From Sinorhizobium terangae (lineage in GTDB: Bacteria > Pseudomonadota > Alphaproteobacteria > Rhizobiales > Rhizobiaceae), in NCBI RefSeq assembly GCF_009601505.1, contig NZ_WITC01000026.1, forward strand, positions 1 to 64,000: a stretch of DNA of 64,000 nt. Reading direction: 5' to 3'. Below, piece by piece: positions 19,558 through 37,984 of the stretch. Made by a program: the position numbers and the translations under genes. The stretch's first letter is position 1. Every line of letters starts with the position of its first letter. The notes beneath the pieces were generated by a model that was not told the DNA's origin, made no database searches, and was given only the letters and a program-made list of their open reading frames with translations.

Positions 19558-20544
19558 GTGCAGAACAACAACATTCTTGTCGTCGGCGGCGCCGGCTATA
19601 TCGGCTCCCATACGTGCCTCCAACTGGCCGCCAAAGGCTACCAGCCCATCGTCTACGACAACCTCTCGAACGGCCATGAAGAATTCGTCAAATGGGGCGT
19701 TCTCGAAAAAGGTGATATTCGAGACCGCAAGCGTCTCGATGACGTTCTCGCACGACATCGACCGCGCGCGATTCTGCATTTTGCGGCCATGATCGAAGTC
19801 GGTGAGTCGGTAAAGGATCCGGCCGCATTCTACGACAACAATGTCATCGGCACGCTCACCTTGCTGTCGGCAGCGCTTGCTGCCGGGATCGACGCCTTCG
19901 TATTCTCGTCCACCTGCGCCACTTACGGGCTGCCCGACAGCGTGCCGATGGACGAAGCGCACAAGCAAGCGCCGATCAACCCCTATGGGCGCACGAAATG
20001 GGTCTGCGAGCAGGCACTGAAGGACTATGACCTCTACAAGGGCCTGCGCTCCGTGATCCTGCGCTACTTCAACGCTGCCGGCGCCGACTTTGAAGGACGG
20101 ATCGGCGAATGGCATGAGCCGGAAACCCACGCGATACCGCTCGCGATCGATGCGGCACTTGGCCGGCGGGAAAGTTTCAGCGTGTTCGGCACCGACTACG
20201 ATACCCGCGACGGCACCTGCGTGCGCGACTATATCCATGTGCTCGACCTTGCGGATGCGCATGTGCGGGCGGTCGACTACCTGCTGGAAGGCGGCAAGAG
20301 CGTCGAGCTCAACCTTGGCACGGGCACGGGCACGACCGTCAAGGAGCTCCTGAGCGCAATCGAAAAGGTTGCGAAGCGGCCGTTCAATATCCGCTATACC
20401 GACAGGCGCGAAGGCGATTCGACCACGCTGGTCGCCAATAACGACAAGGCGCGCGCGGTGCTTGGCTGGGAGCCGCAATACGACCTTGCGGCGATCACCG
20501 AGTCCGCCTGGAATTGGCATTCACGCAGAAATCAGGGCGTCTGA
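19558..20544 (+). CDS. exoB: UDP-glucose 4-epimerase
   Basis: A 328-residue extended SDR that makes UDP-galactose for exopolysaccharide and lipopolysaccharide. The NAD motif is GGAGYIGS near the N-terminus; the catalytic residues are in SSTCATYG and YGRTK. I chose GTG 19558 (MQNNNILVV) because GAGG lies about seven bases upstream and the first residues match the ExoB start I recall; a TTG six bases earlier would sit too close to that site. UDP-galactose is the donor for ExoY, so this gene feeds the first step of the pathway. Orientation and place match S. meliloti exoB. Confidence 0.95.
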   Translation: MQNNNILVVGGAGYIGSHTCLQLAAKGYQPIVYDNLSNGHEEFVKWGVLEKGDIRDRKRLDDVLARHRPRAILHFAAMIEVGESVKDPAAFYDNNVIGTLTLLSAALAAGIDAFVFSSTCATYGLPDSVPMDEAHKQAPINPYGRTKWVCEQALKDYDLYKGLRSVILRYFNAAGADFEGRIGEWHEPETHAIPLAIDAALGRRESFSVFGTDYDTRDGTCVRDYIHVLDLADAHVRAVDYLLEGGKSVELNLGTGTGTTVKELLSAIEKVAKRPFNIRYTDRREGDSTTLVANNDKARAVLGWEPQYDLAAITESAWNWHSRRNQGV

Positions 20545-20611
20545 TTTCGGCGAGTCTGCGGAAACAATTCGAAGCGCTCCGGCGCCGTGCCTGTGAAGAG
20601 GCGCGGCGCTG

Positions 20612-21607
20612 CTAGCCAGCGAGACTCTGGGCCGCCGGTTGCATGCGCTTTCGATAAAGCAACGGACGCTCCAGCATCGCATAGCCGGCAATGCCGATCA
20701 TCGTGCCGCAAAGCACCGAAGCCACCATCGCTATCCAGGCATCGACCCCGACCATCGAAGCGGCCCTGGCGGCCACGGAAATCGCGAAAGTGTGCCAGAT
20801 GTAGATCGAATAGGAAGCATTGCCGAGAAGGTTCGGCACCTGCAGCGAACGGATATATCCGCGAGCCTCGACGGAGAGGACGCCGACGACGAGCATCACC
20901 GCAAGCGGGCCGGTTGTGAATTCGTCGAGTGGCAGGCGAAGAAGGCCGACAAGCGCGAAACCGCCGAACGAGCAAACGATCAGCGCCACGCCGGGAGCGA
21001 GCGAGGGCACCCTGCCCTTCAGCCACAACTCGCCAATCACCATGCCCGCCACGAATTCAAGGATGGCGGGTCGCGTGTACGTCAGCATCAAAGCATTGTC
21101 GAAGCTGATCACCGATCCGGCCAGGACCAGGAGCAAGAACAGACCGGCGATCGCAGGCAGGCGCCAGTTTCGCGGCAGAAACAGCGAGAGTGCGAACACG
21201 GCGTAAAAGAGCATCTCGAAATTGAGCGTCCAGCCCTGCACCAGGACAGGCCATATCTCGCCATTGCTCGGAGAGCGCATTGGAATGAAGAACAGCGAAG
21301 CAAGCGCATGCTTGACAGACAGGACCATGTTCGGGAAGAGCCCAGCGATCCCTCCGGCGACCATGACCATGATCGCCAGCCAATAGATGGGCACGATACG
21401 GCGAATGCGATCGACCATGAACCGCACCGGTGTGACGGGACGGCGATCGCTGATCACCCACATGATGAAGCCGCTGATGACGAAGAAGACGTCAACGCCG
21501 GCCGCACCGATCGCAAAATAATGGCCGGTCTTTTCAGCGGCATGGAATATCACGACCGCCAGCGCCGCCGCAGCACGCAGGTATTGGATCCCGTAGATCG
21601 TTTTCAT
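20612..21607 (-). CDS. exoZ: Exopolysaccharide acetyltransferase
   Basis: A 331-residue acyltransferase-3 family membrane protein with about ten hydrophobic segments. The conserved first-segment histidine is in VVIFHAAEKTG and the following motif GVDVFFVISGFIMW is typical. By analogy with S. meliloti ExoZ it adds acetyl groups to a glucose of the lipid-linked repeat unit. It is convergent with exoB and follows exoQ in the leftward exoY-F-Q-Z unit. Confidence 0.93.
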   Translation of the reverse strand: MKTIYGIQYLRAAAALAVVIFHAAEKTGHYFAIGAAGVDVFFVISGFIMWVISDRRPVTPVRFMVDRIRRIVPIYWLAIMVMVAGGIAGLFPNMVLSVKHALASLFFIPMRSPSNGEIWPVLVQGWTLNFEMLFYAVFALSLFLPRNWRLPAIAGLFLLLVLAGSVISFDNALMLTYTRPAILEFVAGMVIGELWLKGRVPSLAPGVALIVCSFGGFALVGLLRLPLDEFTTGPLAVMLVVGVLSVEARGYIRSLQVPNLLGNASYSIYIWHTFAISVAARAASMVGVDAWIAMVASVLCGTMIGIAGYAMLERPLLYRKRMQPAAQSLAG

Positions 21608-21632
21608 TCAAGCGCCCCCAAGACGCAAGCTA

Positions 21633-22925
21633 CTATGCGCTGAAATGAACTCTGTAGGCTGTAGAACGCCCGTGTTCCGGCCAGAGCCAGTTCATGGTCG
21701 GTCGCGTGCGCTTGATCGTCAGTTTGCCCGCCGCAAAATACAGCAAGAACGAACCGACGTGATACGGGTTGAGAATGTCGACCTCGACGAAAGATCGGAT
21801 GAGAAGCAGTATTGCTATGCCGAAAAGCACCATCGAATCCGGATCGCGTTCTTCCGAAAGCAACCGCTTCAGGTGGCCGAAGACCGTTGTGACCAATACC
21901 ATGGTCAACAACAGGAGGCCGATCGCCCCCGTTTCCACGATTGCCTCGATATAGGTATTATGAAAATGGAAGCCGGTGCGCGCGGTGATAAAAAACTCTT
22001 CCCAGAGCCGCTCCGCCTCCGAAAATCCCTGGATCCAATAGGCCTGGTAGCCCATCCCGACGATCGGGGATGCCATTGCCGCCTCGATGCCCTGCTGCCA
22101 CAGATAGGTGCGGCCGGTGAGGGTCGAATTCTTGCCGAAGGCGCCCAATACCACATCGATACCGCCGCTATAGGCGATCGCGACGGCTGCGACGACGCTG
22201 AACATTGCCGCGGCGAGGAAGAGACCCTTGCGGTTCGACGGCCGCAAGGCTGATATCACCCGCATTCCGAGCGAGAGGCCGATGATTGCCACGGTCGTCA
22301 GAACCGAGGTCGCCGACTGCGAAGCCAGCAGCGAATAGGCAGAGATCAATCCGGAGACACCCGCCGCGGCCATCCAGATGCCGCGCTCGCCCAGGGTGAA
22401 GACGGCAACGAAGGCAAAATATATGCCCAGCGAAGCGTAGAAGCCCAACTGGTTCTTCGATGAGAAGGCGCCGACAAAGCTGAAGGTACCGTCCAGCATA
22501 TCATAGTGATACGCGCCGAAAAGCAGCGAATAGACAAGGACAAGGGCAACGCCGGCGATCCCTCCGCGCGTGAACGTCGGGATATCGATCGTCCGCATGG
22601 CAATAAGCGCACAGACGACGTGGCTGAGATATTGCACGCCGGTGCGCATCGTCATCCCCGGCGCCGCCGACCAGAAGAAGGAAAGGCAGGCAAAGATGGT
22701 AAAGGCGAAGATCCAGAGATACTTGCCGTAATTACCTAAAACCTTGCGGTAGTCGACGAGGACGAGAGGCAGCCACAAGGCGTAATAGAGCAGGATCGAA
22801 ACCTGGCCGAAGCGCGGCGAATAGGCGAAGACGAACAACGACAGCGCCACGGCGAACGTGCCGTAAAGCTGATTCGTCCCGGGGCTGACGAGGCTCGCCT
22901 TCGAAATCCGCATGCTGGAACTCAC
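21633..22925 (-). CDS. exoQ: Exopolysaccharide polymerase (Wzy-like)
   Basis: A 430-residue protein with roughly eleven hydrophobic segments and the large periplasmic loop region of the O-antigen ligase/polymerase (Wzy_C) class; the motif GTGR-like STLTGRTYLW and FHFHNTYIEAIVETG are characteristic. It should polymerise the undecaprenyl-linked repeat units in the periplasm. The listed GTG start overlaps the exoF stop (GTGA); an ATG 12 bases further in is also possible. It is part of the exoY-F-Q-Z transcript. Confidence 0.93.
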   Translation of the reverse strand: MSSSMRISKASLVSPGTNQLYGTFAVALSLFVFAYSPRFGQVSILLYYALWLPLVLVDYRKVLGNYGKYLWIFAFTIFACLSFFWSAAPGMTMRTGVQYLSHVVCALIAMRTIDIPTFTRGGIAGVALVLVYSLLFGAYHYDMLDGTFSFVGAFSSKNQLGFYASLGIYFAFVAVFTLGERGIWMAAAGVSGLISAYSLLASQSATSVLTTVAIIGLSLGMRVISALRPSNRKGLFLAAAMFSVVAAVAIAYSGGIDVVLGAFGKNSTLTGRTYLWQQGIEAAMASPIVGMGYQAYWIQGFSEAERLWEEFFITARTGFHFHNTYIEAIVETGAIGLLLLTMVLVTTVFGHLKRLLSEERDPDSMVLFGIAILLLIRSFVEVDILNPYHVGSFLLYFAAGKLTIKRTRPTMNWLWPEHGRSTAYRVHFSA

Positions 22926-24193
22926 CGCATCGCCAATGCAGCGCTTACCTTGATGACGTCGCCAGGCAGCACCTCGGTGTTCTCGTTCGCCGCGATCTCG
23001 GTCGGCTTGCCATCCTTGTCACGGATGATCGAATAGGTGATGTTCGCCTCGGATTTTTGATCTTCCAGTCGCGCCGCTTCGGCCGATTGCAGCAGCGCCT
23101 CGGCCATGAGGTCGCGGTTGGTGCCGACCTTCAGCGAAAGCGTGTCGAGCTCGGACTCTGTATTTTGCAGCTCCTGAGCGAGCTGTTCGTCCCAATCATT
23201 GCGGAGATTGGTCTCGTCCTGGGTCGCCTTGTTGTAATCCTGCTTGGCCTTGAGCGCATTGGTGTCGATGTCGAGCAGCGACGTCTGCACGTCCGCAACC
23301 CTTTGTTCGAGCGCGAGCTTGCGCTGGCTCAACGCCAGCCCCTTTTCGGCGAGGCTGTCGACCTTCTCGCGATCTTCCTTGACGAGTTCAAGCTGGCGGG
23401 CCTGCGTCTCTGATTTTTTCCCGAGCGACTCGATCTCGCTTTGAAGAAGAGATTTGAGATCAGCAAGGGCGGCCAGTTGTCGCTCCTGCCGCGTGCCGCG
23501 CGACTCCATCAAAGCCACCTCATCGGCGAGCAGCTTGTCGACACCCTCGACGTTATTGAGTTCGCGGGGCAATTCGATCTTGTTGCGTTTGCCGATTTCA
23601 GCCTGGAGCCGGGCGCGGCGAATGAGCAGCCTGTTGCGCTCGGCGACCTGCACGGCGGATTCGCCGCTCGCCACAATGTAGTCCCGGACAAAACGCCCGC
23701 CGCTTTCGGCCCGGCGCAATCCGCCGCCGAGGCTGACGGCCTTGAGTACGGTCATCTTCGGCACATAGGGATACTCGCCCGGGGTCTCCACTTCGCCGGT
23801 AAGATAGACGGGACGGTATTGCGCCATTTCGACCGACGCCGAGGGCCGGTCGCGCAGACCGAAAAGCTTCTGCATCTGGATACCGATCTCGGCCGCGACT
23901 TCCGTCGTCGTCTTGCCCGAAGCAGGCAGGTCGCCGACAAAAGGCAGCGAGATACTACCCGATGCGCCGATCGTGTACTCGCCGCTGACGGCCGACCAGT
24001 CGCGCACGGCCCCCTGGGCCGTCTGCCACTCGGCAACGCGGACGCGCAGCTTGTCCATCACGCCAAGTCGATATTCGTCGGCCCCCGCCGCAGTCGCTCC
24101 TGACGCGACAACGACCGCGATCAGAGCGACGCGGGCGAAACGGGAAAACTTTTTGGAGACGTCAAGCGTCCCCGAAGTTCTGATAGGTTGCAT
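22922..24193 (-). CDS. exoF: Outer-membrane polysaccharide export protein (OPX, ExoF)
   Basis: A 423-residue protein with an N-terminal hydrophobic segment, cleavage likely after TAAGA-DEYRL. It has a poly_export domain (about residues 40-115, DEYRLGVMDKLRVRVAEW), then an SLBB-type domain (VYLTGEVETPGEYPYVP) and a long coiled-coil region (about 200-370). It lacks the lipobox and C-terminal amphipathic helix of E. coli Wza. In S. meliloti ExoF is needed at an early step and for export with ExoP and ExoQ. It follows exoY by 60 bases and overlaps exoQ. Confidence 0.93.
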   Translation of the reverse strand: MQPIRTSGTLDVSKKFSRFARVALIAVVVASGATAAGADEYRLGVMDKLRVRVAEWQTAQGAVRDWSAVSGEYTIGASGSISLPFVGDLPASGKTTTEVAAEIGIQMQKLFGLRDRPSASVEMAQYRPVYLTGEVETPGEYPYVPKMTVLKAVSLGGGLRRAESGGRFVRDYIVASGESAVQVAERNRLLIRRARLQAEIGKRNKIELPRELNNVEGVDKLLADEVALMESRGTRQERQLAALADLKSLLQSEIESLGKKSETQARQLELVKEDREKVDSLAEKGLALSQRKLALEQRVADVQTSLLDIDTNALKAKQDYNKATQDETNLRNDWDEQLAQELQNTESELDTLSLKVGTNRDLMAEALLQSAEAARLEDQKSEANITYSIIRDKDGKPTEIAANENTEVLPGDVIKVSAALAMR

Positions 24194-24253: not shown

Positions 24254-24934
24254 TCAATAGCTGCCGCGGGAGAAGCAGACGGCAGGGATCGTCTTGACGA
24301 CGATGGCAAGGTCGACAAGGAGCGACCAGTTCTGGACGTATTGCGTGTCGAAGGCCACTCTGGCGGCGTAAGATACGTCGTTACGGCCGCTGATCTGCCA
24401 AAGACCGGTCAGACCAGGCCGGGAGCGCAGGTAGTAGACGGCAGCCGAATCATAAAGCTCGAGTTCGTCCTCTACGACCGGGCGCGGACCGACAACGCTC
24501 ATTTCGCCACGAATAATGTTGAGGAGCTGTGGCAGCTCGTCGAGGCTGAGCTTGCGCAACACGGCTCCTACCGTGGTTACCCGTGGGTCATCCTGTAGCT
24601 TGCGAGTTGTGCGCCACTCTTCGTAGGCGTGAGGATTCTCCTTGAAATAGTCCTGCAGCACGCGATCGCCATTCTCCATCATCGTCCGGAATTTCAGGCA
24701 CTTGAAGGCCTGACCGTTGTGACCGATGCGGCGGTGTCCATAAAAAACACTCCCTCCATCGGAGAACTTCACGAGCGCCATGATGAGCAGGAAGAGCGGG
24801 CTGAAGAACACGAGAGCCAAGGACGCGGCGGCAATGTCAAAACTTCGTTTCGATATGCCTCCTATCGGCCGGAATACTCCGGTCTCTTTGGCGATGAAAA
24901 ACGGCGAACTGGCCGAGCGAGTCGCGGACTTCAT
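24254..24934 (-). CDS. exoY: Undecaprenyl-phosphate galactose-1-phosphate transferase
   Basis: A 226-residue initiating transferase that moves galactose-1-phosphate from UDP-galactose to the lipid carrier. One hydrophobic segment near residues 35-55 is followed by the bacterial sugar transferase domain: KFRTMMENGD, RKLSLDELPQLLNIIRGEMS, VVGPRP and the C-terminal motif PGLTGLWQISGRND. The start at 24934 (MKSATRS) has GGAG upstream and gives the length known for S. meliloti ExoY; an upstream in-frame start at 24988 would add 18 unlikely residues. ExoX, encoded divergently, is its known inhibitor. Confidence 0.96.
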   Translation of the reverse strand: MKSATRSASSPFFIAKETGVFRPIGGISKRSFDIAAASLALVFFSPLFLLIMALVKFSDGGSVFYGHRRIGHNGQAFKCLKFRTMMENGDRVLQDYFKENPHAYEEWRTTRKLQDDPRVTTVGAVLRKLSLDELPQLLNIIRGEMSVVGPRPVVEDELELYDSAAVYYLRSRPGLTGLWQISGRNDVSYAARVAFDTQYVQNWSLLVDLAIVVKTIPAVCFSRGSY

Positions 24935-25675
24935 AGAGGTGACTCCATTTACGTTTTGCGATTGTCGGTCCCGCAGGACGCGGGTCATCTAGCGCGAGTG
25001 TATGGTGAGAATTTGTTTTTTGAAGGCGAAATCAAGGCCGCGTCGGGGCACCCCGTCGCCGACCCGTTTCGGCCGACCGGACGCAGGCACTATTACTAAA
25101 ATTTAATTATAACGATCCGAAATTTATAACTAAGATAGTTTGTCGCATGCCTGCCACGTTGAAACATCGGGCGGACTTAATGCTTTCGGATCGCGAAGTA
25201 TTACACGAAACGAATCATTGTTTCACTCAGACGGCCAGAGGCAGCGCCGGTGCGAAATTGACAAGGGGTAATTCCGGCTCAGCTTTTTGCATCGCACCAT
25301 TATTTTGCGGCGCACATTTTTCTCGGTCTTTTTGCAATAAACTTGTAACAAAAGTTGATCGGACAAACGCGTTTCGCAATGCGGAAAGATGCAGCAATCA
25401 GAATGAGTTCGCATTTACCCCTCTAATCACAGGGGCCAGCGAAACAAGCCGTTCAGTATCCCATTTTCCTCGGTTGTATTGTATTTTTCCTTACACACCA
25501 TCTTTAATTGCATGCCTGCACACGATCACTCCGAAGTGATTTGTCCACGGTCGCGGGTGAAGATGGCGGAAAGAATTGCGCGGTAGAAACTGCAGAAACA
25601 AAGTTGCGGCTTGCATGTTGAAGAGAAAAGCGACCACTAATATAGTGGGAATGGGAGGAGAGGGCTTAGTGTCGA
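24935..25675. promoter_or_regulatory. exoX-exoY divergent control region
   Basis: About 740 bases without a supported gene, AT-rich around 25085-25140 and 25300-25345. It must hold the leftward exoY and rightward exoX promoters, which in S. meliloti are targets of MucR and other regulators. ATTTTGCGGCGCACA at 25302-25316 closely matches ATTTTGCGGGGCACA at 28960-28974 in the other long exo intergenic region, so a shared regulator is possible. Confidence 0.6.
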
Positions 25676-26005
25676 ATGACGGTACCAGTCGAAAATCCGA
25701 AGGGCGGTAACGCGATGTTCGCGCCGCGCGTTCTTGCCAGCATGATTGGCGCGTTGGTGGCTTTTGCCATCGCAACCTATCTCCTGAACGGCTCACTGCT
25801 TTCGACCGCGATACAGACCCTGATCTGTGCCGTGCTGTTGCAGGTCGGATATTTCATCGCCGTCCTGTTCCTGGTCTGGAAGGAAGCCCGCGACCGACGC
25901 AAATTGTCTCCCGGCAAGGCGTCGATCGAATCTGCGTCCGACGACAAGCAATCGGGCAAGATCTCCATTCGCCGTTTGAACCGCCCGGGCCACTCCAACA
26001 CCTGA
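25676..26005 (+). CDS. exoX: Small membrane inhibitor of exopolysaccharide synthesis
   Basis: A protein of 109 residues (or 96 if the internal ATG at 25715 is used) with two hydrophobic segments (about ASMIGALVAFAIATYLL and LICAVLLQVGYFIAVLFLVW) and a basic, hydrophilic tail. It matches ExoX/Psi of rhizobia, which acts after transcription to lower ExoY activity when in excess. It is divergent from exoY, and the ExoX:ExoY ratio is thought to set polymer output. GGAGAGG lies about 15 bases before the first ATG and GAAGGGCGG before the second, so the start is unsettled. Confidence 0.9.
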   Translation: MTVPVENPKGGNAMFAPRVLASMIGALVAFAIATYLLNGSLLSTAIQTLICAVLLQVGYFIAVLFLVWKEARDRRKLSPGKASIESASDDKQSGKISIRRLNRPGHSNT

Positions 26006-26198: not shown

Positions 26199-27224
26199 AT
26201 GACCGTAGCCGCGCCGACGAATGTCTGCATCATCATTGCCGCAAAGAACGCCGCCGACACGATCACCAGAGCGACCGCCTCCGCCCTTGCGGAACCAGAG
26301 GCTGCCGAAGTCATCGTCATTGACGATGGTTCGACCGATGACACTGCCCGCACCGCACGCGCCGCGGATGACGGAAGCGGCCGTTTGAACGTGGTCCGCT
26401 TCGACGAAAACCGCGGTCCCGCCGCCGCACGCAATCATGCGATCGCGATCTCGCAGTCCCCTCTTCTTGGCGTACTGGATGCCGACGACTTCTTTCTTCC
26501 GGGTCGGCTTCGTCAACTCCTTTCCGAGGATGGCTGGGACTTCATTGCAGACAATATCGCGTTCATCGACGCCAGCGAGGCGGAAACCGCCCATGGTCGG
26601 ATCGGCCGTTTCACGGCCAGTCCCCGCCTGCTCGATCTCGTCGGTTTCGTCGAAGGCAACATCTCCCGGCGCGGCGTTCGCCGCGGCGAGATCGGCTTCC
26701 TCAAGCCGCTGATGCGGCGCTCGTTCCTCGACAGCCATCTGCTGCGCTACAAGGAAGACCTGCGCCTTGGTGAAGACTACGACCTCTACGCCCGCGCGCT
26801 TGCGAAGGGCGCCCGTTACAAGATCATCCACAGCTGCGGCTATGCCGCTGTCGTGCGAGGCAATTCACTGAGCGGCAGTCACCGCACGGCAGACCTGAGG
26901 CGCCTCTACGAGGCGGACCGGGCGATCCTCACCGAAGGCGCATTGAGCGCCGATGCCGCCACCGCCATCCGGCGCCATGAGCGCCACATCCGTGACCGCT
27001 ACGAACTGCGGCACTTTCTCGACCTCAAAAACCATGCGGGCTACATGAGCGCGATAGGTTACGGACTCACAAATCCCGGTGCGCTGCCGGCGATCGTCGG
27101 CGGAATCCTTGCCGACAAGACAGAACGTTTTCGGCCCCGTGAATCCGTCGCGCCGGTCGCGCTCGGCGGCTCGGGCGCCATCCGCTATCTGCTTGACGCA
27201 CCCATGACCGAGCCGGGGAAATAG
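26199..27224 (+). CDS. exoU: Glycosyltransferase family 2 (ExoU, side-chain glucosyltransferase)
   Basis: A 341-residue cytoplasmic-face GT-A enzyme. The start at 26199 (MTVAAPTNVC) follows GGAG and gives the family length; a longer open frame begins at 26097. Motifs: nucleotide-binding VIDDGSTDDT, GPAAARNHAI and the DxD-type LDADDFF, then GEDYDLYARAL as the catalytic-base region. In S. meliloti ExoU adds the sixth sugar, a beta-1,6 glucose. Normally exoV, exoW and exoT follow; here they are missing. Confidence 0.92.
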   Translation: MTVAAPTNVCIIIAAKNAADTITRATASALAEPEAAEVIVIDDGSTDDTARTARAADDGSGRLNVVRFDENRGPAAARNHAIAISQSPLLGVLDADDFFLPGRLRQLLSEDGWDFIADNIAFIDASEAETAHGRIGRFTASPRLLDLVGFVEGNISRRGVRRGEIGFLKPLMRRSFLDSHLLRYKEDLRLGEDYDLYARALAKGARYKIIHSCGYAAVVRGNSLSGSHRTADLRRLYEADRAILTEGALSADAATAIRRHERHIRDRYELRHFLDLKNHAGYMSAIGYGLTNPGALPAIVGGILADKTERFRPRESVAPVALGGSGAIRYLLDAPMTEPGK

Positions 27225-27596
27225 CCGAAGCTCACAGGTCTGCAGTGACTTGCGCGACGGCCTCCCCCGCTCCGCTCCAGGCGGCGGCGCCGGACGGATA
27301 TCAGGATCGCGGCTTCCGTCGAGTAGTGTGCGAAAAGATTGGGCGCGACCGCTCTTGTAATCGTTCTGTGGAATTCCGACATCCGCGTCGACAGATTGCC
27401 TGTTCAGATGTCGGCGAGATCGCCTGACCTGCAGGCAGGCTTCGCGCTCGGAACGCTGACCACGGATGTACTGGCAGATAGAGCAGCGAAGGGGAAAAGG
27501 TCGGGGCGCCCCGGCCTTTTTTGTTGCCTGCAGGCCAAAAAAGGAACGCTTCTTGAGCCTTCGCGTTTATCGCGTAACGATATGGAGGTAAGTGGC
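27225..27596. other. Gap where exoV, exoW and exoT would be expected
   Basis: No gene is recognisable in these 370 bases. I looked in all frames for ExoV, ExoW or ExoT segments and found none I can support. A good intrinsic terminator is present (27499-27523) and a ribosome site (GGAGG) near 27582 serves the tiny gene at 27597. Confidence 0.6.
27499..27523 (+). terminator. Intrinsic terminator downstream of exoU
   Basis: GGTCGGGG-CG-CCCCGGCC forms an eight-pair stem (one G-T pair) followed by TTTTTTG. It faces rightward, so the exoX-exoU message probably ends here. Confidence 0.85.
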
Positions 27597-27671
27597 ATGA
27601 AAGGCATCATTCTCTGGCTAATGGGTGTTCCCCTGATCGTTATCGTTCTTCTTTACATGTTTGTCTTCTGA
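27597..27671 (+). CDS. 24-residue single-pass membrane miniprotein
   Basis: ATG at 27597 is preceded by ATGGAGGTAA nine bases upstream, a strong ribosome site, and directly follows a terminator. The product begins MKGIILWLMGVPLIVIVL and continues hydrophobic to a phenylalanine end, so it is essentially one transmembrane helix with one lysine at the N-terminus. I recall similar very short MKGIILWL-type proteins in rhizobia but cannot name a function. It fills the place left by exoV-W-T. Confidence 0.6.
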   Translation: MKGIILWLMGVPLIVIVLLYMFVF

Positions 27672-29595: not shown

Positions 29596-30392
29596 TGACA
29601 ATGATATCCGACTGTTATACGCGCCTGCGCCACCTCACACTCGTCACGCTCCCGCTTGCGGGCCTCGCCGGAACGGCAGTCGCCCAGCCGAGCGCCAATG
29701 GCGCGTCCTTCATGGACGATTTCGACGGTTTGAACACCGGCTTCTGGTTTGTCTCGGACGGATGGAACAATGGTGCCCACCAGAACTGCACCTGGTCCAA
29801 GAAGCAGGTGAAGATAAACAACGGCATTCTGGAACTTACCTTCGAGCATCGAAAGGAAGGCGAGCGCAATTTCGCCTGCGGTGAAATTCAGAGCCGCAAG
29901 CGCTTCGGCTATGGCACATACGAGGCGCGGATCAAGACGGCCGACGGGTCTGGGCTGAATTCCGCCTTTTTCACCTACATCGGCCCGGCCGACAAGAAAC
30001 CGCACGACGAAATCGACTTCGAAGTGCTCGGCAAGAATCCGGCGAAAGTCCAGGTCAATCAATATGTCTCGGCCAAGGGCGGCAACGAGTATCTTGCCGA
30101 TGTTCCCGGCGGCGCCAACCAAGGTTTCAACGACTACGCTTTTATCTGGGAGAAGGATCGGATCCGCTACTTCGTCAACGGCGAACTGGTCCATGAGGTG
30201 ACCGATCCGGCGAAGATCCCGTCGAACGCGCAGAAGATCTTCTTCAGCCTCTGGGGCACGGACACTCTTAGCGACTGGATGGGCACATTTTCCTACACGG
30301 AGCCCACGACCCTTCAGGTCGATCGCGTCGCCTTCACGGCCCTTGGCGAGGAGTGCCAGTTCGCCGAATCAGTCGCTTGCCGCATGGATTGA
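29595..30392 (+). CDS. exoK: Secreted endo-1,3-1,4-beta-glycanase
   Basis: A 265-residue glycoside hydrolase family 16 enzyme with a Sec signal peptide ending near AVA-QPSA. The catalytic motif is DEIDFEVLG (about residues 138-146), with NGAHQNCTW and WEKDRIRYFVNGE as further family landmarks. It cuts nascent succinoglycan to low-molecular-weight forms outside the cell; in S. meliloti succinylation by ExoH makes the polymer easier to cut, so loss of exoH here may alter processing. Its ATG overlaps the exoH relic stop, a leftover of translational coupling. Confidence 0.95.
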   Translation: MTMISDCYTRLRHLTLVTLPLAGLAGTAVAQPSANGASFMDDFDGLNTGFWFVSDGWNNGAHQNCTWSKKQVKINNGILELTFEHRKEGERNFACGEIQSRKRFGYGTYEARIKTADGSGLNSAFFTYIGPADKKPHDEIDFEVLGKNPAKVQVNQYVSAKGGNEYLADVPGGANQGFNDYAFIWEKDRIRYFVNGELVHEVTDPAKIPSNAQKIFFSLWGTDTLSDWMGTFSYTEPTTLQVDRVAFTALGEECQFAESVACRMD

Positions 30393-30501: not shown

Positions 30502-31710
30502 ATGCTGCAGATACTTTATTTGGCGCAGGACCTTGCCGATCCTGCTGTACGCCGTCGGATTCTGACGCTTGTCGCGGGCGGGGCGAACGTAACGCTTGCC
30601 GGCTTTCGCCGGGACGCCAATTCGCTCGCCGCCATGCCAGGCATGGAACCTGTCGAACTGGGGATCACAGCCGACGGTCGCTTTGCGCAGCGTATCGGCG
30701 CGGTTGCCGCCGCCTGCCTTTCGCTGAAGAGCAAGCTGGCGAATGTCGGCAAACCCGACCTGATCATCGCACGCAATCTCGAGATGCTGGCCGTTGCCAA
30801 ACGGGCCGTCACGATTTTCGGCGGCCAGGTGCCGATTGTCTACGAGTGCCTCGACATACACCGCCTGCTGCTGCGCAAGGATGTCGTCGGGCGTGCGCTG
30901 CGTGCCACCGAGGCTCGTCTCGGACGCGATGCGCGCTGGCTGATAACCAGTTCTCCAGCCTTCATCGAACATTATTTCCGGCCGCTCTCGGGGGTCGATG
31001 CACCGGCACTGCTTCTCGAAAACAAAGTTCTCGAAATCGATGGCCCCGCGGATCGGATTGCTGATTCCGCGCAATGCCCGGTGCCTGGTCCTCCATGGAA
31101 GATCGGTTGGTTCGGGGCGTTACGCTGCGCCAAGTCCCTCGCGCTGCTTTCCGAGTTCTCCCGCAGGATGGAGGGCCGCTTCGAAATCGTTTTGCGGGGT
31201 AGACCCGCCCATTCCGAATTCGAGGATTTTGATGCGTTCGTCCGCAATGAGCCTTTCGTAAGCTTCGAGGGCGCCTATCGCAATCCGGAAGACCTCGCCG
31301 ACATTTATGGCGACGTCCACTTCACATGGGCGATCGATTTCTTCGAGGAGGGCCAGAATTCCGCATGGCTGCTGCCGAACCGCCTCTATGAGGGATGCCG
31401 TTATGGACGGGTGCCGATCGCCATGAAAGGCACGGAGACGGCACGTTTCCTCTCGGTTCGCGGCATCGGAATGGTGCTGGAAGAGGTCACCGCAGAGAGC
31501 CTTGCGACGCTGATCGGATCGATGACACCAGATCGATACATCGAAGCGGCTAACGGCGTCGCCCAATGCAACCCGGGAACCTGGGTCTTCGACCGCACGG
31601 ACTGCGAGGCATTGGTGCGGAGCCTCGCGGCGCTCGCAGTCGAAACGCCCCAAACAATACCGACCCCGGCCGTACCGGAGCCCCGCCACAATGAGGGGGG
31701 ATTGCTATGA
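30502..31710 (+). CDS. exoL: Glycosyltransferase (ExoL)
   Basis: A 402-residue GT-B-like glycosyltransferase. In S. meliloti ExoL adds the third sugar, a beta-1,4 glucose. Readable landmarks include VYECLDIHRLLLRKDVVGRA in the N-terminal lobe and KIGWFGALRCAKSL followed by LPNRLYEGCRYGRVPIAM in the nucleotide-sugar lobe. It starts the exoL-A-M-O-N-P block, and its stop overlaps the start of exoA by four bases. Confidence 0.92.
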   Translation: MLQILYLAQDLADPAVRRRILTLVAGGANVTLAGFRRDANSLAAMPGMEPVELGITADGRFAQRIGAVAAACLSLKSKLANVGKPDLIIARNLEMLAVAKRAVTIFGGQVPIVYECLDIHRLLLRKDVVGRALRATEARLGRDARWLITSSPAFIEHYFRPLSGVDAPALLLENKVLEIDGPADRIADSAQCPVPGPPWKIGWFGALRCAKSLALLSEFSRRMEGRFEIVLRGRPAHSEFEDFDAFVRNEPFVSFEGAYRNPEDLADIYGDVHFTWAIDFFEEGQNSAWLLPNRLYEGCRYGRVPIAMKGTETARFLSVRGIGMVLEEVTAESLATLIGSMTPDRYIEAANGVAQCNPGTWVFDRTDCEALVRSLAALAVETPQTIPTPAVPEPRHNEGGLL

Positions 31711-32699
31711 ACCCGAAACGTTTGACCTCCAGCCTGATCGTCATCCCTTGCCTCAATGAGGCCGATCATATCGAAGGGCTGGTCGCAAAGTTGCGTCCGT
31801 CGCTGGAGCCGCTGAACGCAAAGATCGCGATCGTCGACGGCGGTAGCACCGACGGGACGCGCAAGATCGCGAGCCGTCTTGCCGCCGACGACGAGCGTGT
31901 CCTTTTCCTCGACAACCCGAAGCGCATACAGAGCGCCGCGATCAACCGCGCCGTTTCGGAACTTGGGTCCTCCTTCGACTACCTGATCCGCGTCGACGCG
32001 CACGGGAGCTACCCGGACGACTATTGCCAGCGTCTCGTCGAAGAGGCCGTGGCGACCGATGCCGATTCCGTGGTCGTGGCGATGCAGACCGTCGGCTTCA
32101 GCACCTTTCAGAAGGCAACCGCCTTTGCCCAGAATTCGAAGCTTGGCAACGGCGGCTCCAAACATCGGGCCGGCGCGGCTGGCCACTGGGTCGAACACGG
32201 GCACCACGCGCTCATGCGTATCGCGGCTTTCCAGGCGGTCGGAGGTTACGACGAGACCTTCAGCCACAATGAAGATGCCGAGCTGGATTACCGCTTGGCG
32301 AAAGCCGGGTACCGCATCTGGATGACCGACAAGACAAACATGGTCTACTACCCGCGCGCAAAGGTCGGTCCGCTCTTCCGGCAATATTTCGGTTACGGCC
32401 GCGGCCGTGCAAAGAACTTCCTCAAGCATCGCGCCATGCCCGGCTTGCGGCAGATACTGCCGCTGGCGGTCGCGCCGGTGGCGGTCGGGGCACTGCTTGC
32501 GGTCGTCAACTGGGTCGCCGCCATTCCGTTCGGCGTCTGGGCTCTCGCGTGCCTTGGTTATGGCGCATGGATGGCGCTCGGCCAGAGAAATCCCTATGGG
32601 CCGCTGGCTGCTGTCTCGGCAATGGTCATGCACCTCGCCTGGTCGGCCGGTTTCTGGCGCGAAGTTCTCGATTTGCGACGGTTTCGGGTGCACCCATGA
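31707..32699 (+). CDS. exoA: Glucosyltransferase (ExoA), membrane-anchored GT2
   Basis: A 330-residue family 2 glycosyltransferase that in S. meliloti adds the first glucose to galactose on the lipid carrier by a beta-1,3 bond. GT-A motifs: VIPCLNEADHIEG, IVDGGSTDGT, VDAHGSYP as the DxD-like site and FSHNEDAELDYRLAKAGYR. The C-terminal quarter holds two or three membrane segments (about residues 250-320). It overlaps exoL upstream and exoM downstream (ATGA). Confidence 0.95.
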   Translation: MNPKRLTSSLIVIPCLNEADHIEGLVAKLRPSLEPLNAKIAIVDGGSTDGTRKIASRLAADDERVLFLDNPKRIQSAAINRAVSELGSSFDYLIRVDAHGSYPDDYCQRLVEEAVATDADSVVVAMQTVGFSTFQKATAFAQNSKLGNGGSKHRAGAAGHWVEHGHHALMRIAAFQAVGGYDETFSHNEDAELDYRLAKAGYRIWMTDKTNMVYYPRAKVGPLFRQYFGYGRGRAKNFLKHRAMPGLRQILPLAVAPVAVGALLAVVNWVAAIPFGVWALACLGYGAWMALGQRNPYGPLAAVSAMVMHLAWSAGFWREVLDLRRFRVHP

Positions 32700-33646
32700 C
32701 CGCCGCAATCAACGAAACATCCGCGAAACCGATGCGGATCGATATCGCTGTTTGCACCTTTCGGCGGCCGGAGGTCGTCCAGACGCTCCGTTCACTCGCG
32801 GCAATTACGGTGCCCGATAGGGCTGTGATCCGTATCATCGTCGCAGACAATGACGTCGAACCGACCGCGAAGCCTCAGGTCGAGGCTCTCCGCCCGGAGA
32901 TGCCCTTCGAGATTACCTATGTCCATTGCCCGGCGTCGAATATCTCGCTCGCGCGCAACGCCTGCCTGGACAGTAGCACGGGCGATTTTCTCGCCTTCAT
33001 CGACGACGATGAGACCGCTTCGAAAGAGTGGTTGGCAGCCCTCGTGGAAGCGGCGCGGACCAGCGGTGCCGAGGCGGTCCTGGGCCCGGTCCGCGCGGCC
33101 TACGGCACGTCGGCGCCCGCCTGGATGCGTCGCGGCGACTTTCATTCGACGAAGCCGGTCTGGGTCGGCGGCGAAATTCGCACCGGCTACACCTGCAATG
33201 TTCTGCTGAACCTCGGGGCCCCGGCGGTGGCTGGCCGTCGCTTCAAGCTCGCACTCGGCAAGAGCGGCGGCGAGGACACCGACTTCTTCGCCGCGATGCA
33301 TGACGCTGGAGGAGCGATCGCTTTCGCCCCGGGGGCCTGGGTTCACGAACCGGTGCCGGAAAAGCGGGCCTCGTTTTCGTGGCTTGCGAAGCGTCGCTTT
33401 CGCTCCGGCCAGACGCATGGCCGCCTGCTGTCGGAGAAATCGAACCGTTCACGGCAGCCCTGGAACCTCGCCCTGGCGTCGGCCAAATCGGCCTATTGCT
33501 CGCTGGCGACCCTGCTTTTCCTGCCCTCGCCGGTACATCGCTATCGTTTTGCGTTGCGCGCAATCATGCACGCCGGCGTCGTGAGCGGACTCCTGGGGCA
33601 CAAGGAACTTGAACAATACGGAGCAACGGGGGTGACATCGCAATGA
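32696..33646 (+). CDS. exoM: Beta-1,4-glucosyltransferase (ExoM)
   Basis: A 316-residue GT2 enzyme; ExoM adds the fourth sugar, a beta-1,4 glucose, in S. meliloti. The start at 32696 overlaps the exoA stop; an internal ATG (MRIDIAVCTF) 36 bases later is another candidate. Motifs: CTFRRPEVVQTL, SLARNACLDSS, FIDDDETASKEWL and GGEDTDFFAAMHDAG. Its stop overlaps the exoO start, so exoA-M-O are tightly coupled. Confidence 0.94.
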   Translation: MTAAINETSAKPMRIDIAVCTFRRPEVVQTLRSLAAITVPDRAVIRIIVADNDVEPTAKPQVEALRPEMPFEITYVHCPASNISLARNACLDSSTGDFLAFIDDDETASKEWLAALVEAARTSGAEAVLGPVRAAYGTSAPAWMRRGDFHSTKPVWVGGEIRTGYTCNVLLNLGAPAVAGRRFKLALGKSGGEDTDFFAAMHDAGGAIAFAPGAWVHEPVPEKRASFSWLAKRRFRSGQTHGRLLSEKSNRSRQPWNLALASAKSAYCSLATLLFLPSPVHRYRFALRAIMHAGVVSGLLGHKELEQYGATGVTSQ

Positions 33647-34656
33647 GCGGGTTCGTTCCGGACGTCACCTTCGTCGTGGCCGCCTACAACGCCGCCGACA
33701 CCATCGTGCGCGCCGTCGAGAGTGCACTTCGTCAGGAAGGCGTTACCGTCGAGGTGGTCGTCGTCGACGACCGTTCATCGGACGGGACGGTGGAGATCGT
33801 TTCGACAATCGCCGACCCGCGGGTGCGCCTGATCGCCCTCGAGCAAAATCGGGGGCCGGGCGGGGCCCGCAACGCCGGCTTGGCGGCAGCACGCGGCAAG
33901 TGGATCGCCGTGCTCGATTCGGACGACACCGTCAGGCCGGACCGGCTGGCGCGCATGATTGAGCGCGCCGAGAAGACGGCAGCACAGGTCGTCGTCGACA
34001 ATCTCGACGTCGTCTCGCTCGACGGGCGGAGCGTCAGAATGTTTGCGGAGGCCGAGCTCGCCCGGCAGCCGCTTTTGACGCTCCCCGCCTTCATCGAGTC
34101 GAACGTGATCTTCCGTTCGCAACACAACTTCGGCTACATGAAGCCCGTCTTCGAACGGCGCTTCCTCGAGGAGCATGACCTTCGTTTCGACGAGGCGCTA
34201 CGGATCGGCGAGGACTATATCCTGCTTGCCTCGGCGCTTGCCTCCGGCGGTCGCTGCGCCATCGAACCCTCGGCCGGCTACATCTATCATATCCGCGAGG
34301 GTTCCATCTCGCGGGTGCTCAAGCTCGACCATATCGATGCCATGATGTCCGCGGATGAAGCGTTCCTGCGTCGCTACCCCCTTGATGTCCTGTCGGAGAG
34401 AATGCAGCGCAAGCGTACCCGCGGCTTCCACCAGGCGCGCTCGTTTCTCCTCCTCGTCGAGCAGTTGAAAAGCAGATCGTTGGCTGGCGCGCTGAAGGCT
34501 GCGCTCGCCGACCCGCTAGCGCTTCGGCATCTGCACATGCCGATCGTCGTACGACTGCGCCGCCTTGCGGCGCGCTCGGCAAACACCGCCCCCATGACGG
34601 CGGCGGCCGAACCACCCCCGCTGGGCGAGAGCCCTTACACAAGCAAAGGACGATAG
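33643..34656 (+). CDS. exoO: Glucosyltransferase (ExoO)
   Basis: A 337-residue GT2 enzyme; in S. meliloti ExoO adds the fifth sugar, a beta-1,6 glucose that starts the side chain. Motifs: [56 protein letters not shown] and [12 protein letters not shown]. It resembles ExoU in this window (GPAAARNH, LDADDFF), as expected for related side-chain transferases. exoN follows after one base. Confidence 0.94.
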
Positions 34657-34657
34657 A

Positions 34658-35563
34658 ATGGACCGCATCAGGACCGTCAGGAAAGCAGTGATTCCCGTTG
34701 CCGGAAACGGAACCCGATTCCTTCCCGCAACGAAGGCCGTGCCGAAGGAAATGTTGACGATCGTCGATCGGCCCGTGGTTCAATACGCCGTGGACGAGGC
34801 CCGTCAGGCCGGCATCGAACACATCGTTTTCGTCACCAGCCGCAACAAGCAGGCGATCGAGGACCACTTCGACGATGCGCCGGAACTCATCTCGTCCCTG
34901 TCGCGCTCGGGCAAGAATGCGCAGATTTCCGAGCTTGAAAGGATGCTGCCGAAAGCCGGCTCCGTGAGTTTCACGCGCCAGCAGGCTCCGCTCGGCCTTG
35001 GCCACGCAGTGTGGTGCGCACGCGACCTTATCGGCGACGAGCCTTTCGCACTGCTACTTCCCGACATGGTCTCCTTCGGGGCGCGCGGCTGCATGGCCGG
35101 CCTGATGGATCTCTACCAGGAGGTCGGAGGCAATGTCGTCGCCGTCGAGCAATGCGCCCCCGAAGACGCCTCCAAATACGGCATCGTCGGCAAGGGCGGC
35201 ACGGTGCGGCACGGCTTTGCGGTAACCGAGATGGTGGAAAAGCCCGCCACAGGCCAGGCTCCCTCGAACTACTATCTCAACGGGCGTTACATCCTCCAGC
35301 CCGAAATCTTTTCCATCCTCGCGCACCAGCAACGCGGCGCAGGCAACGAAATCCAGCTGACCGACGGGATGCTGAAGCTTTCGGCAAACCAGCCCTTCCA
35401 CGCCCATCCCTACGAGGGCAGGACGTTCGATTGCGGTTCGAAGCAAGGCTTCATCGAGGCGAATGTCGCCTTCGCGCTGAACCGAACGGATATCGGCGAC
35501 ATGGTCTTCGAATCCGTTCGCGAGATCGTTTTGTCTCACGAAAGCCGCATCCGAGCGGCATAA
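34658..35563 (+). CDS. exoN: UTP-glucose-1-phosphate uridylyltransferase
   Basis: A 301-residue GalU-type pyrophosphorylase making UDP-glucose, the donor for all Exo glucosyltransferases and the ExoB substrate. The nucleotide motif is [19 protein letters not shown], which has AGNGTR where many relatives have AGLGTR. Later motifs are [15 protein letters not shown] and EMVEKPA. It is coupled to exoO by one base. A strong hairpin separates it from exoP. Confidence 0.95.
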
Positions 35564-35597: not shown

Positions 35598-35617
35598 CTC
35601 ACGGACCGGAGAAAAAA

Positions 35618-37984
35618 ATGAACAGAGCGGCCCCCATGAAACAGAGAAGTGCCCCCTTGAGCATCGTGCCCCGCGAGGAAGAATCCGACGGCTTCATCGA
35701 TCTTGATCGGCTTCTGGCTATTGCCGTCCGCAGGGCCAAGCTGGTAGCGGCCTTTGTTGTCCTCTTCATCATGCTGGGTGTTGCCTACCTGTTGTTTGCG
35801 ACGCCGACCTACACGTCCATGACGCAGATTCTGCTTGACGAAAATCTGTCGAAATTTGCCGAGGAAGAGCCGACTCCGGTAAACAGCCAGATGCTGGACA
35901 CCCAGATCGCGAGCGCCGTGGAGATCCTGAAGTCCGGCGAGCTTGCCTTGCGGGTCGTCGACAAACTCAATCTCTCCGAGAACGCCACGATCATGAATCC
36001 GCCGCGTTCGCCGATGGCGTACGTCAAGGACTGGGTAAAGACAGCGACCGGCCTCTTTTCGTCCGGCCCCACGGTTTCGGAGGAGGCATTACGCAAGAAT
36101 CGGCGACTGGCGGCGGCGGCGTTGATCCAGCAGGCCCTGACGGTCGAGCGCGTATCGCGAAGCTCCGTGGTGGCTCTCTCCTATAAGTCGAACGACCCCC
36201 AGCTTGCCGCAACGGTCGTGCGCGGTTATGCGCAAGCCTATCTTACCGATCAATTGAACGCCAATTTCGAAGCGACGGAACGTGCTTCCGTCTGGCTGCA
36301 GGAACGCCTCACGGACTTGCGGCAGCGCTCTCTGGCGGCGGCACTCGAGGTTGAGCAGTTCAGAAGCGAAAACGGCCTGACGGCCGCACGCGGCGAGCTG
36401 ATGTCCGAACAGCAATTGTCGGACCTCAACAGCCAGCTCATCGTCGCCCAGGCCGACACGGCCAGCGCCTCGGCGCGCTACAACCAGTTCAAGTCGATTG
36501 TCGACCAGGGGCCGGAGACCGCCGTCAACAACGCGACGATTTCTCCCAAAGAGGGAGACAACATGGTTATCCGCGATCTCAGGGCCCGCTATCTCGCTGT
36601 CGTGAAGCGCGAGCAGGAGGTCTCTCAGAACTTTGGCAAGGACCATCCGCAGGCTGTATCACTGAGGGCCGAGCAGGCCGACATGGGGCGGCAGATCTAC
36701 CAGGAACTGCAGCAACTGACGGCAAGCTACAAGAACGAATACGAAGTCGCCCGCTCGCGCGAGCAGTCGCTGCGTGAAAGCATCGAAGGAGTCGTGGGGA
36801 AAAACACGAACGCCAACAAGTCACTGGTTCAGTTGAGGGATCTGGAGCAGAAAGCGGCGGCGCTGAAGACGCTTTACGAGTCCTATCTCGGCCGCTATGA
36901 GCAGGCAGCACAGCAACGCTCGTTCCCGATCGCCAAGGCTCGGGTCATCTCCGAGGCCGGCGTTCCCACAGCCCCCTCGAGCCCGAAGAAGACCCTGACG
37001 CTTGCTCTTTCCGCCGTGCTCGGCTTGATGGCCGGCGGCGCCTTCGCCGCCTTCCAGGAGTTCCGCGAGAGAACCTTCCGGCTCGAAGACGATGTGCGGG
37101 CAATCCTCGGTCACAAGTCGCTCGGTTATGTGCCATTGATCGGCACACGGACGAAGAAGAGTGCGGAACTCGTACGCACGCGCTTTGCGTCCGACAGGCA
37201 ACCGGACGTGATCGGCGAAGACTCAGTGGCCTTCCAGCGCTTGGCTCGCATGGTCCTCGAAGCGCCACAATCCTCTTTTGCCGAGACTTTCCGGAACGCC
37301 AAGCTTGCCTGCGATCACATGTTGCACGGCAACGATAGCCGCGTGATCGGGATCGTGTCCGCGGTTCCCGACGAGGGCAAGTCAGTCATCGCCGCAAACT
37401 TCGCGGCGCAGTTGGCCGCGAGCGGAAAGCGGACGCTCTTGATTGATGGCGATATCCGCAAGCCCGGCCTCACCCAGATGATCACGCCCGCCCCTCGCAC
37501 CGGGCTCGTCGAGACGCTGATGGGTGAAGCCACCTGGCCCGCCGGCATCAAGGTCGACCAGCGCACCAAGCTTGCGATCTTCCCTGTCGGCGGGGGCGCA
37601 TCCAACCATCAGCCCCATCAAAGTCACGAGCTACTCGCCTCGGCTGCCATGGCAAATCTGATCGAGAATGCGCGCAATGCGTTCGACTACGTGGTCGTCG
37701 ACCTTGCGCCGTTGGCGCCTGTCGTGGACGCAAAGGCCTTTGCTCCACTTGCAGATGGTTTCATCTTCGTCGTCGAATGGGGAAAAACGCCGTCTCGCCT
37801 GGTGCGCGACGTTCTGCATTCCGAGCCGCAGATCAATTCCAAGGTGCTCGGGGTCATCCTCAACAAGACCGACATGGATGAGCTTTCCAAGTACAGCGAC
37901 TTCGGCGGCGTCGAGAAGTATCGACATCGTTACGGCAAATACTACGTCGAGCATTCGGTCAGCGGCGACCGGCCCGCAGCCTGA
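35618..37984 (+). CDS. exoP: Polysaccharide co-polymerase with BY-kinase domain
   Basis: A 788-residue inner-membrane protein controlling chain length and export with ExoQ and ExoF. The Wzz domain begins near residue 25 with the first membrane segment about 42-62; a long periplasmic coiled coil spans about 190-420; the proline-rich motif PTAPSSPKKTL and second membrane segment lie near 450-475. The C-terminal tyrosine-kinase domain has Walker A VPDEGKSVIA, Walker A' LLIDGDIRKPGL, Walker B VVVDLAPLAPV and a tyrosine-rich tail (YSDFGGVEKYRHRYGKYY). Kinase and chain regulator are on one chain, as in S. meliloti. Confidence 0.96.
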   Translation: MNRAAPMKQRSAPLSIVPREEESDGFIDLDRLLAIAVRRAKLVAAFVVLFIMLGVAYLLFATPTYTSMTQILLDENLSKFAEEEPTPVNSQMLDTQIASAVEILKSGELALRVVDKLNLSENATIMNPPRSPMAYVKDWVKTATGLFSSGPTVSEEALRKNRRLAAAALIQQALTVERVSRSSVVALSYKSNDPQLAATVVRGYAQAYLTDQLNANFEATERASVWLQERLTDLRQRSLAAALEVEQFRSENGLTAARGELMSEQQLSDLNSQLIVAQADTASASARYNQFKSIVDQGPETAVNNATISPKEGDNMVIRDLRARYLAVVKREQEVSQNFGKDHPQAVSLRAEQADMGRQIYQELQQLTASYKNEYEVARSREQSLRESIEGVVGKNTNANKSLVQLRDLEQKAAALKTLYESYLGRYEQAAQQRSFPIAKARVISEAGVPTAPSSPKKTLTLALSAVLGLMAGGAFAAFQEFRERTFRLEDDVRAILGHKSLGYVPLIGTRTKKSAELVRTRFASDRQPDVIGEDSVAFQRLARMVLEAPQSSFAETFRNAKLACDHMLHGNDSRVIGIVSAVPDEGKSVIAANFAAQLAASGKRTLLIDGDIRKPGLTQMITPAPRTGLVETLMGEATWPAGIKVDQRTKLAIFPVGGGASNHQPHQSHELLASAAMANLIENARNAFDYVVVDLAPLAPVVDAKAFAPLADGFIFVVEWGKTPSRLVRDVLHSEPQINSKVLGVILNKTDMDELSKYSDFGGVEKYRHRYGKYYVEHSVSGDRPAA

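Follow-up and report, generated by a model that had tools for sequence, protein, structure and literature searches.

The window analysed here is the stretch of 64,000 nucleotides formed by positions 1 to 64,000 (forward strand) of contig NZ_WITC01000026.1 from Sinorhizobium terangae (GCF_009601505.1; genome G000 in our numbering, 139 contigs, 7.08 Mb), and the system in question is its succinoglycan-type exopolysaccharide (EPS) cluster, the exo genes, arranged as exoB-Z-Q-F-Y-X-U-(gap)-exoI-ORF-mini-exoH-exoK-L-A-M-O-N-P (ORF, open reading frame). Both exoBZQFYXU and exoKLAMONP are all present, as in the S. meliloti-type succinoglycan cluster; what is missing between exoU and exoI is exoT, exoW and exoV (exoTWV), and exoH is reduced to a short frame. 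In this study, we describe an unlinked locus on another contig of the same genome, C98, that carries two GT4 glycosyltransferase genes together with genes for a Wzx flippase and a pyruvyltransferase (PyrS) and is a well-supported candidate for filling the exoTWV gap, and we describe the manner in which exoH has decayed.

The genes of the cluster are readily recognized. When 22 exo-region proteins of S. meliloti ml47 were searched against the window by tblastn, exsA, exoB/Z/Q/F/Y/X/U/I/K/L/A/M/O/N/P and two small ORFs were matched at 56-94%, each exo gene being 70-94% identical to its ml47 counterpart, and Pfam agrees with the assignments wherever a model matches (no Pfam model matched exoL). 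The UDP-glucose 4-epimerase gene exoB (19558..20544, plus strand; 94% to ExoB; TIGR01179 galE, 5e-128) is followed on the minus strand by the genes for the acetyltransferase ExoZ (20612..21607; 74%; PF01757), the Wzy polymerase ExoQ (21633..22925; 77%; PF04932), the export protein ExoF (22922..24193; 79%; PF02563) and the priming galactosyl-phosphate transferase ExoY (24254..24988; 88%; PF02397). All further genes lie on the plus strand: the regulator exoX (25715..26005; 72%), exoU, a GT2 gene proposed to encode the transferase of the last backbone glucose (26199..27224; 83%; PF00535), then, beyond exoI and the small ORFs described at the end, the endoglycanase gene exoK (29601..30392; 81%; PF00722), exoL (30502..31710; 76%), exoA (31707..32699; 85%; PF00535), exoM (32711..33646, start set from alignment; 70%; PF00535), exoO (33643..34656; 77%; PF00535), the UDP-glucose pyrophosphorylase gene exoN (34658..35563; 92%; PF00483) and the co-polymerase/kinase gene exoP (35618..37984; 80%; PF02706, PF13807). 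An earlier reading of the window from its sequence alone (the sequence-only reading) had placed the gene order otherwise close to that of the S. meliloti succinoglycan locus, and all remaining exo genes are indeed in place.

The same reading had held that exoV, exoW and exoT are absent from the cluster, and this is borne out: with the ml47 proteins, exoT and exoV gave no match in the window, the sole exoW match was a 26% cross-match to exoO, and the site between exoU and a conserved 24-aa ORF (27225..27596) showed no exoTWV match below E 0.2. An assembly gap at 27225 or 28706, which that reading had allowed for, is excluded as the cause of the missing genes, since the complete S. terangae CB3126 megaplasmid NZ_CP121660 has the same structure and gene content and matches positions 19300-38100 of the window at 99.0% identity over 100%. 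The whole-genome search found no ortholog of ExoV (best, a 26% partial match) or of ExoT (best, a 24% match, which is the C98 Wzx), and no other ExoH among the matches listed. In a survey of the exo regions of 31 of 33 Sinorhizobium genomes (all but G014 and G031), exoTWV was missing from 27, and in all 27 exoQ/F/Y/X/U/K/L/A/M/O/N/P had near full-length matches. The same absences are found in S. terangae CB3126, S. mexicanum (where 43 residues of exoT survive), S. chiapasense and S. fredii SMH12.

That this type of cluster lacks exoTWV and exoH is already known, and the cluster is in the known S. fredii-type state. Table 3 of PMC4053727 gives exoH and exoTWV in 33/33 S. meliloti and 13/13 S. 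medicae, and in none of the S. fredii (n=2), S. saheli (n=1) and S. terangae (n=1) strains tabulated there, and S. fredii HH103 is described as lacking exoV, exoW, exoT and exoH (PMC4270759). Genes replacing exoTWV are named neither in the available text of PMC4270759 and PMC8227245 nor, as far as titles and the beginnings of abstracts tell, in the open-licence literature searched.

The flippase and pyruvyltransferase family searches converge on C98, where the strongest Wzx match in the window's genome (4.1e-82) adjoins a pyruvyltransferase. The locus, unlinked to exo, spans ~C98:155578-160701, which corresponds to 5579-10702 of the fetched stretch L023 (C98:150000-169999). In L023 coordinates, GT4A (5579-6664, plus strand; only weak generic NCBIfam matches), GT4B (6661-7869, plus strand, with a later ATG possible at 6676) and wzx (7961-9424, plus strand) are followed by pyrS on the opposite strand (9359-10702, minus strand). 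This arrangement is contiguous in the window's genome and in 15 of 16 Sinorhizobium loci, the 16th being cut by a contig end, and the locus is also present in S. fredii NGR234 and other S. fredii records. The four genes, hereafter the kit, lie 233-948 kb from the exo cluster in the eight plasmid records holding both, and in S. terangae CB3126 the C98-type locus and exo are on the same megaplasmid. The expectation of the sequence-only reading that flippase, pyruvate and terminal-sugar functions are either lost or provided from another place is thereby supported: orthologs of exoV and exoT were found nowhere in the genome, and C98, away from exo, holds genes for a flippase, a pyruvyltransferase and two GT4 enzymes.

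In E. coli, the colanic acid genes wzxC-wcaK-wcaL are grouped, with a gene order and backbone that differ from those of the C98 kit and exo. The kit resembles this group in its NCBIfam matches: GT4B scores best against WcaL, Wzx against the MOP flippase PRK10459, and PyrS against CsaB, with WcaK next and about equal, all below the family cut-offs. An assignment of sugar donors from solved structures was tried and rejected, since the PDB sequence search returned only eight matches for GT4A, the best over ~90 residues, and none for the pyruvyltransferase. The window's genome holds PF01943 at five places, PF13440 at six and PF04230 at six, the C98 locus being included in each. On another contig, a neighbouring pair of genes of the pyruvyltransferase family is found next to the gene for an 892-aa protein that has GT2 and GT4 domains (L025, G000:C77:1-20000); this is probably another surface polysaccharide locus.

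Across the 33 Sinorhizobium genomes, the two gene sets have complementary distributions. ExoV (90-98%) is present in five (G003, G013, G014, G015, G023), and each of the remaining 28, but none of the five, has the C98 pyruvyltransferase (82-100%), when the 25-28% partial ExoV matches in 11 of the 28 are not counted as ExoV; ExoT (93-98%) and full ExoH (94-98%) occur in the same five as ExoV, and the C98 Wzx (83-100%) in the same 28 as the pyruvyltransferase. ExoU is matched in 33/33, and distant Wzx relatives (below 45%) also occur in all 33. In the plasmid collection, 106 records match ExoW at E 1e-20 or better, and the 60 of them that were listed include none of the 14 Sinorhizobium records that bear the kit. 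One plasmid labelled Sinorhizobium chiapasense, NZ_CP144206.1, has ExoW (76.5%), unlike S. chiapasense NZ_CP133152, and no C98-type pyruvyltransferase match; its species label may be wrong.

The strongest link between the kit and exo is its position inside exo clusters outside the genus. Scanning named genomes by pyruvyltransferase gave 57 loci, 16 in Sinorhizobium and 41 outside. Within the stretches fetched, each of the 16 shows fewer than three exo genes, and 15 have all four kit genes. By contrast, 33 of the 41 outside loci (Mesorhizobium, Aminobacter, Phyllobacterium) combine three or more exo genes with the four kit genes and a UDP-glucose 6-dehydrogenase; of the remaining eight, six have the kit and the dehydrogenase without nearby exo, one the kit without the dehydrogenase, and one is partial. 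Among the 33, the kit occupies the exoL/exoK interval in 21 and the exoU/exoY interval in five (Phyllobacterium), and in seven it adjoins exoL, with the contig or fetched sequence running out ahead of exoK. The order in Mesorhizobium and Aminobacter is exoP-N-O-M-A-L-[pyruvyltransferase, Wzx, GT4B, GT4A]-exoK-exoU. The dehydrogenase is placed between GT4A and the next exo gene in L115, L125 and L126 and beside GT4A in L121. GT4A of the window's genome is 72-81% and GT4B 52-62% identical to those of the Mesorhizobium loci. A third alpha-transferase as a fifth kit gene was considered and rejected: of five loci scanned outside Sinorhizobium, four have the UDP-glucose dehydrogenase as their fifth gene, and L145 has a PLP enzyme that is unrelated. 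Five Mesorhizobium loci (L134, L135, L148, L151, L155) carry a second GT4B-like gene, three GT4 genes in all, and no Sinorhizobium kit locus carries one.

GT4 enzymes are retaining glycosyltransferases, so that alpha linkages are to be expected from the kit, as in the S. fredii side chain. In the account of PMC4270759, the EPS of S. fredii HH103, equal to that of NGR234, has an unbranched beta Glc5-Gal backbone (Glc, glucose; Gal, galactose), an alpha-Gal(4,6-pyruvate)-alpha-GlcA-alpha-GlcA side chain (GlcA, glucuronic acid) joined through an alpha-GlcA-(1-4)-Glc link, and O-acetyl groups; succinyl is given as absent in S. fredii EPS (PMC8227245). By analogy, the S. terangae polymer is probably of the S. 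fredii type, with a Gal-Glc5 backbone and a side chain of GlcA-GlcA-pyruvylated Gal. If the S. meliloti functions carry over, ExoY would prime synthesis and ExoA, ExoL, ExoM, ExoO and ExoU would add glucose, giving the one Gal and five Glc of the S. fredii backbone. GT4A would add alpha-GlcA to a backbone glucose, the second GlcA and the terminal Gal would come from GT4B and one further transferase, the 4,6-pyruvate would come from PyrS, and the C98 Wzx would take the place of ExoT. GT4A is likely the first GlcA transferase, because it is more conserved than GT4B and the alpha-GlcA-(1-4)-Glc link occurs in S. fredii EPS and, as reportedly found by Muszynski et al. in 2016, in that of M. loti R7A. 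UDP-GlcA, which is the product of the UDP-glucose dehydrogenase that accompanies the kit outside the genus, would here be supplied by an rkpK-type dehydrogenase encoded outside the C98 locus. No dehydrogenase is found at the Sinorhizobium kit locus, which fits the finding that an HH103 rkpK (UDP-glucose dehydrogenase) mutant is without EPS (PMC8227245). The claim of the sequence-only reading that the polymer should differ from S. meliloti succinoglycan is likewise supported, and no succinyl transfer is expected from this locus.

Where a 370-aa ExoH would be expected, the window has a 131-aa ORF (29200..29595, plus strand) ending at exoK, which aligns in one frame to ExoH residues 1-43 and ~281-370 and has no Pfam match up to E 0.1, versus Acyl_transf_3 at 1.5e-31 for full ExoH. 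The description of exoH as a relic in the sequence-only reading thus stands as far as it is neither full-length nor in possession of the acyltransferase domain; it does not stand in so far as the frame is still open across an internal deletion and is not random debris. N- or C-terminal exoH pieces (49-75% identity) persist in 14 of the 28 genomes without ExoV, the window's included. All 11 S. terangae-group genomes keep the GTG start, the first 25-132 codons and about the last 60 codons or more (the end is two codons shorter in G026 and G027), and in all 11 the frame is open and stops 2-11 bases short of where exoK is projected to start. With codons counted along the 376-codon frame of G023, the lost ones are 50-292 in G000, G032 and G026; 26 to ~291 in G027 (shown by the automatic alignment as two losses, 26-48 and 50-292); ~30-262 in G016 and G030 (placed by eye and by tblastn pieces, the automatic alignment forcing 50-292); 50-299 in G005; 133-314 in G010 and G028; and 58-305 in G018 and G029. 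G000, G032 and G010 have two-codon losses of their own. The distinct deletions are thus six large and three small ones, each a multiple of three in length, a pattern that would have a probability of ~5e-5 if the frame were free, in a count made after the pattern had been seen and with all genomes of the group kept in.

The ratio of nonsynonymous to synonymous substitution rates (dN/dS) of the retained N- and C-terminal pieces is 0.56 and 0.64 (range to 0.66) in the 11 S. terangae-group genomes, versus 0.10 and 0.33 in three exoTWV genomes. The mini-ExoH peptide therefore looks relaxed while its frame is kept, and a functional mini-ExoH acyltransferase is not supported, given this raised dN/dS and the lack of a Pfam match. 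The simplest reading would be that the frame is kept to avoid polarity, or to keep translational coupling, on exoKLAMONP. Against this, the frame is lost altogether in six of eight S. fredii-group genomes (G006, G007, G008, G009, G011, G022).

Relics also bear on exoT. C-terminal ExoT debris lies directly after exoU, on the right strand, in five of the 27 intervals without exoTWV, all in the S. terangae group (tblastn E of 2e-8 in G016, 3e-6 in G005, 7e-4 in G010, 2e-3 in G026 and 0.02 in G030); in G016, G005, G010 and G026 it is also found by blastn, at E 3e-5 or better. In the 27 exoY-exoX intervals taken as controls, ExoT has no match up to E 0.5, and the best chance match is that of exoV (0.06). 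Since the pieces stand right after exoU in five relatives and in none of the controls, exoT was, on the evidence of these remnants, once present and then deleted. On both the rpoB tree (30 genomes; G006, G020 and G031 left out) and the exo-backbone tree (30 genomes, three of them exoTWV), which are both midpoint-rooted with no outgroup and have some low inner supports, the exoTWV clade is nested among kit-bearing genomes. This nesting, taken with the exoT and exoH relics, fits an ancestor that would have carried both kits, followed by reciprocal loss. The lineage most probably once had exoT, so presumably exoTWV, and exoH, and lost them, exoH then being worn down by in-frame deletions with translation to exoK kept.

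We consider it most probable that the exo cluster is of the S. fredii type, that the outer end of its polymer is made in trans by the C98 kit, and that exoTWV and exoH were once present and have been lost. We also advance, much more tentatively and as a view that may well need revision, a fixed hexasaccharide core with two interchangeable finishing kits, either exoTWV with exoH or (UDP-glucose dehydrogenase)-GT4A-GT4B-Wzx-pyruvyltransferase, the latter in the cluster or in trans; the Sinorhizobium ancestor would have had both and its lineages would have kept one each, and exoH, left orphaned in front of the other genes of the exoK-P operon, would erode in a frame-preserving way since translation up to exoK must be kept.

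Several points weigh against these proposals. The five ExoV genomes form one clade on the rpoB tree, so that the 33 genomes are not 33 independent tests, and the exclusion of ExoV and PyrS at genus level may be a single evolutionary event. Among 297 family genomes, strong ExoV (62% or more) is found in 49 and the pyruvyltransferase (58% or more) in 11, counts that exclude weaker matches (15 for ExoV, at 36-50%, and one for the pyruvyltransferase, at 41%); both occur together in one (G288) versus 1.8 expected, which is not significant, and a family-wide mutual exclusion is thus neither supported nor refuted. The weakest ExoT debris match (0.02) comes near the best chance match of the controls, and the window's own genome has no exoT debris. 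The ggt/suox/pca neighbourhood, which hosts the kit in Sinorhizobium, is also found in S. meliloti Ak57, where it lacks the kit and ggt-suox is inverted, and in this strain, the one examined, the suox-pobA gap holds no kit relic: its only strong match is suox, and the kit proteins reach 0.03-0.2 (GT4A none) versus unrelated exo queries down to 7.5e-5. There are two GT4 genes at C98 versus three alpha linkages in the S. fredii side chain, and the end structure of the S. terangae polymer is carried over from S. fredii by analogy. Finally, the composition given for M. loti R7A EPS includes riburonic acid and lists no pyruvate; if R7A has the kit, the kit need not always make the same end. R7A mutants in mlr5265 and mlr5266 are described as affected in mid or late EPS steps, and these may be kit genes.

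It could be argued that exoTWV and exoH were never in this lineage and were gained by the S. meliloti group, as the nesting of exoTWV genomes among kit-bearing ones on the midpoint-rooted trees, the clean window, and the finding of no exoW or exoV debris above chance level in the 27 intervals would allow. We regard this as unlikely, given the ExoT C-terminal pieces in the expected place and strand in five close relatives and the exoH pieces described above. We judge it more doubtful still that the cluster has decayed, its polymer being absent or truncated, and that the C98 locus serves another surface polysaccharide (capsule, lipopolysaccharide or galactoglucan). Loss of the flippase, pyruvyl and terminal-sugar genes would indeed block succinoglycan assembly in S. 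meliloti, where exoV and exoT are called indispensable (PMC7902896), and other Wzx and PF04230 genes are present in the window's genome; however, backbone and export genes remain near full-length in every exo region without exoTWV, S. fredii strains with the same gene set are reported to make pyruvylated EPS (PMC4270759), and the kit keeps company with exo genes in most loci outside Sinorhizobium. Least probable of all is that another pyruvyltransferase or flippase (e.g. the C77 pair, or C98:214073) completes the exo polymer with the C98 four-gene locus as a bystander, for although five further PF04230 places exist and the C77 pair stands beside a large GT2 and GT4 protein, the C98 pyruvyltransferase complements ExoV exactly in the 33 genomes, and exo clusters of other genera contain relatives of it together with the rest of the kit.

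Among the closest known systems is that of S. fredii: HH103 and NGR234 are missing the same four genes, exoV, exoW, exoT and exoH (PMC4270759), SMH12 and NGR234 have the same remaining exo genes in order, and NGR234 and other records have the same unlinked four-gene locus. SMH12 differs in having no ExoH match, whereas in the window's lineage a mini-exoH persists, open and in frame. The succinoglycan (EPS I) cluster of S. meliloti shares the backbone, polymerisation and export genes at 70-94% identity and differs in having exoTWV and a full-length exoH. The Mesorhizobium, Aminobacter and Phyllobacterium clusters share the backbone genes and the kit, but there the kit sits with the exo genes and includes the dehydrogenase; in M. 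loti R7A the terminal sugar is reported as riburonic acid, which is a further difference. The outer end of rhizobial EPS matters for the legume host response: succinoglycan function in S. meliloti is stated to depend on succinylation (PMC4916376), and impairment on Lotus is described for M. loti mutants affected in mid or late EPS steps. The C98 locus offers specific genes with which to test EPS end structure against host range between S. meliloti and S. fredii.

Some smaller features deserve mention. A second ExoU-like gene (76-77%) is found elsewhere in G002, G007, G008, G022 and G024, and a sixth genome has one at G023:C26:39304-40311 (76%, with one internal TAG), which suggests a second exo-like cluster in these six Sinorhizobium genomes. 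In the window, exoI (27833..28429, plus strand; 71% to ExoI residues 33-191), of the SNase family (PF00565, 1.3e-10), has an intact frame, although Table 3 of PMC4053727 gives exoI as absent from S. terangae (n=1). Beside it lies a conserved 85-aa ORF (28448..28705, plus strand; 64% to an S. meliloti ORF). The 24-aa hydrophobic ORF between exoU and exoI, MKGIILWLMGVPLIVIVLLYMFVF (27597..27671, plus strand), has no Pfam match, lies directly 3' of exoT in S. meliloti, and is conserved at 87-100% identity in 26 of the 31 genus members, having outlived the loss of exoTWV.

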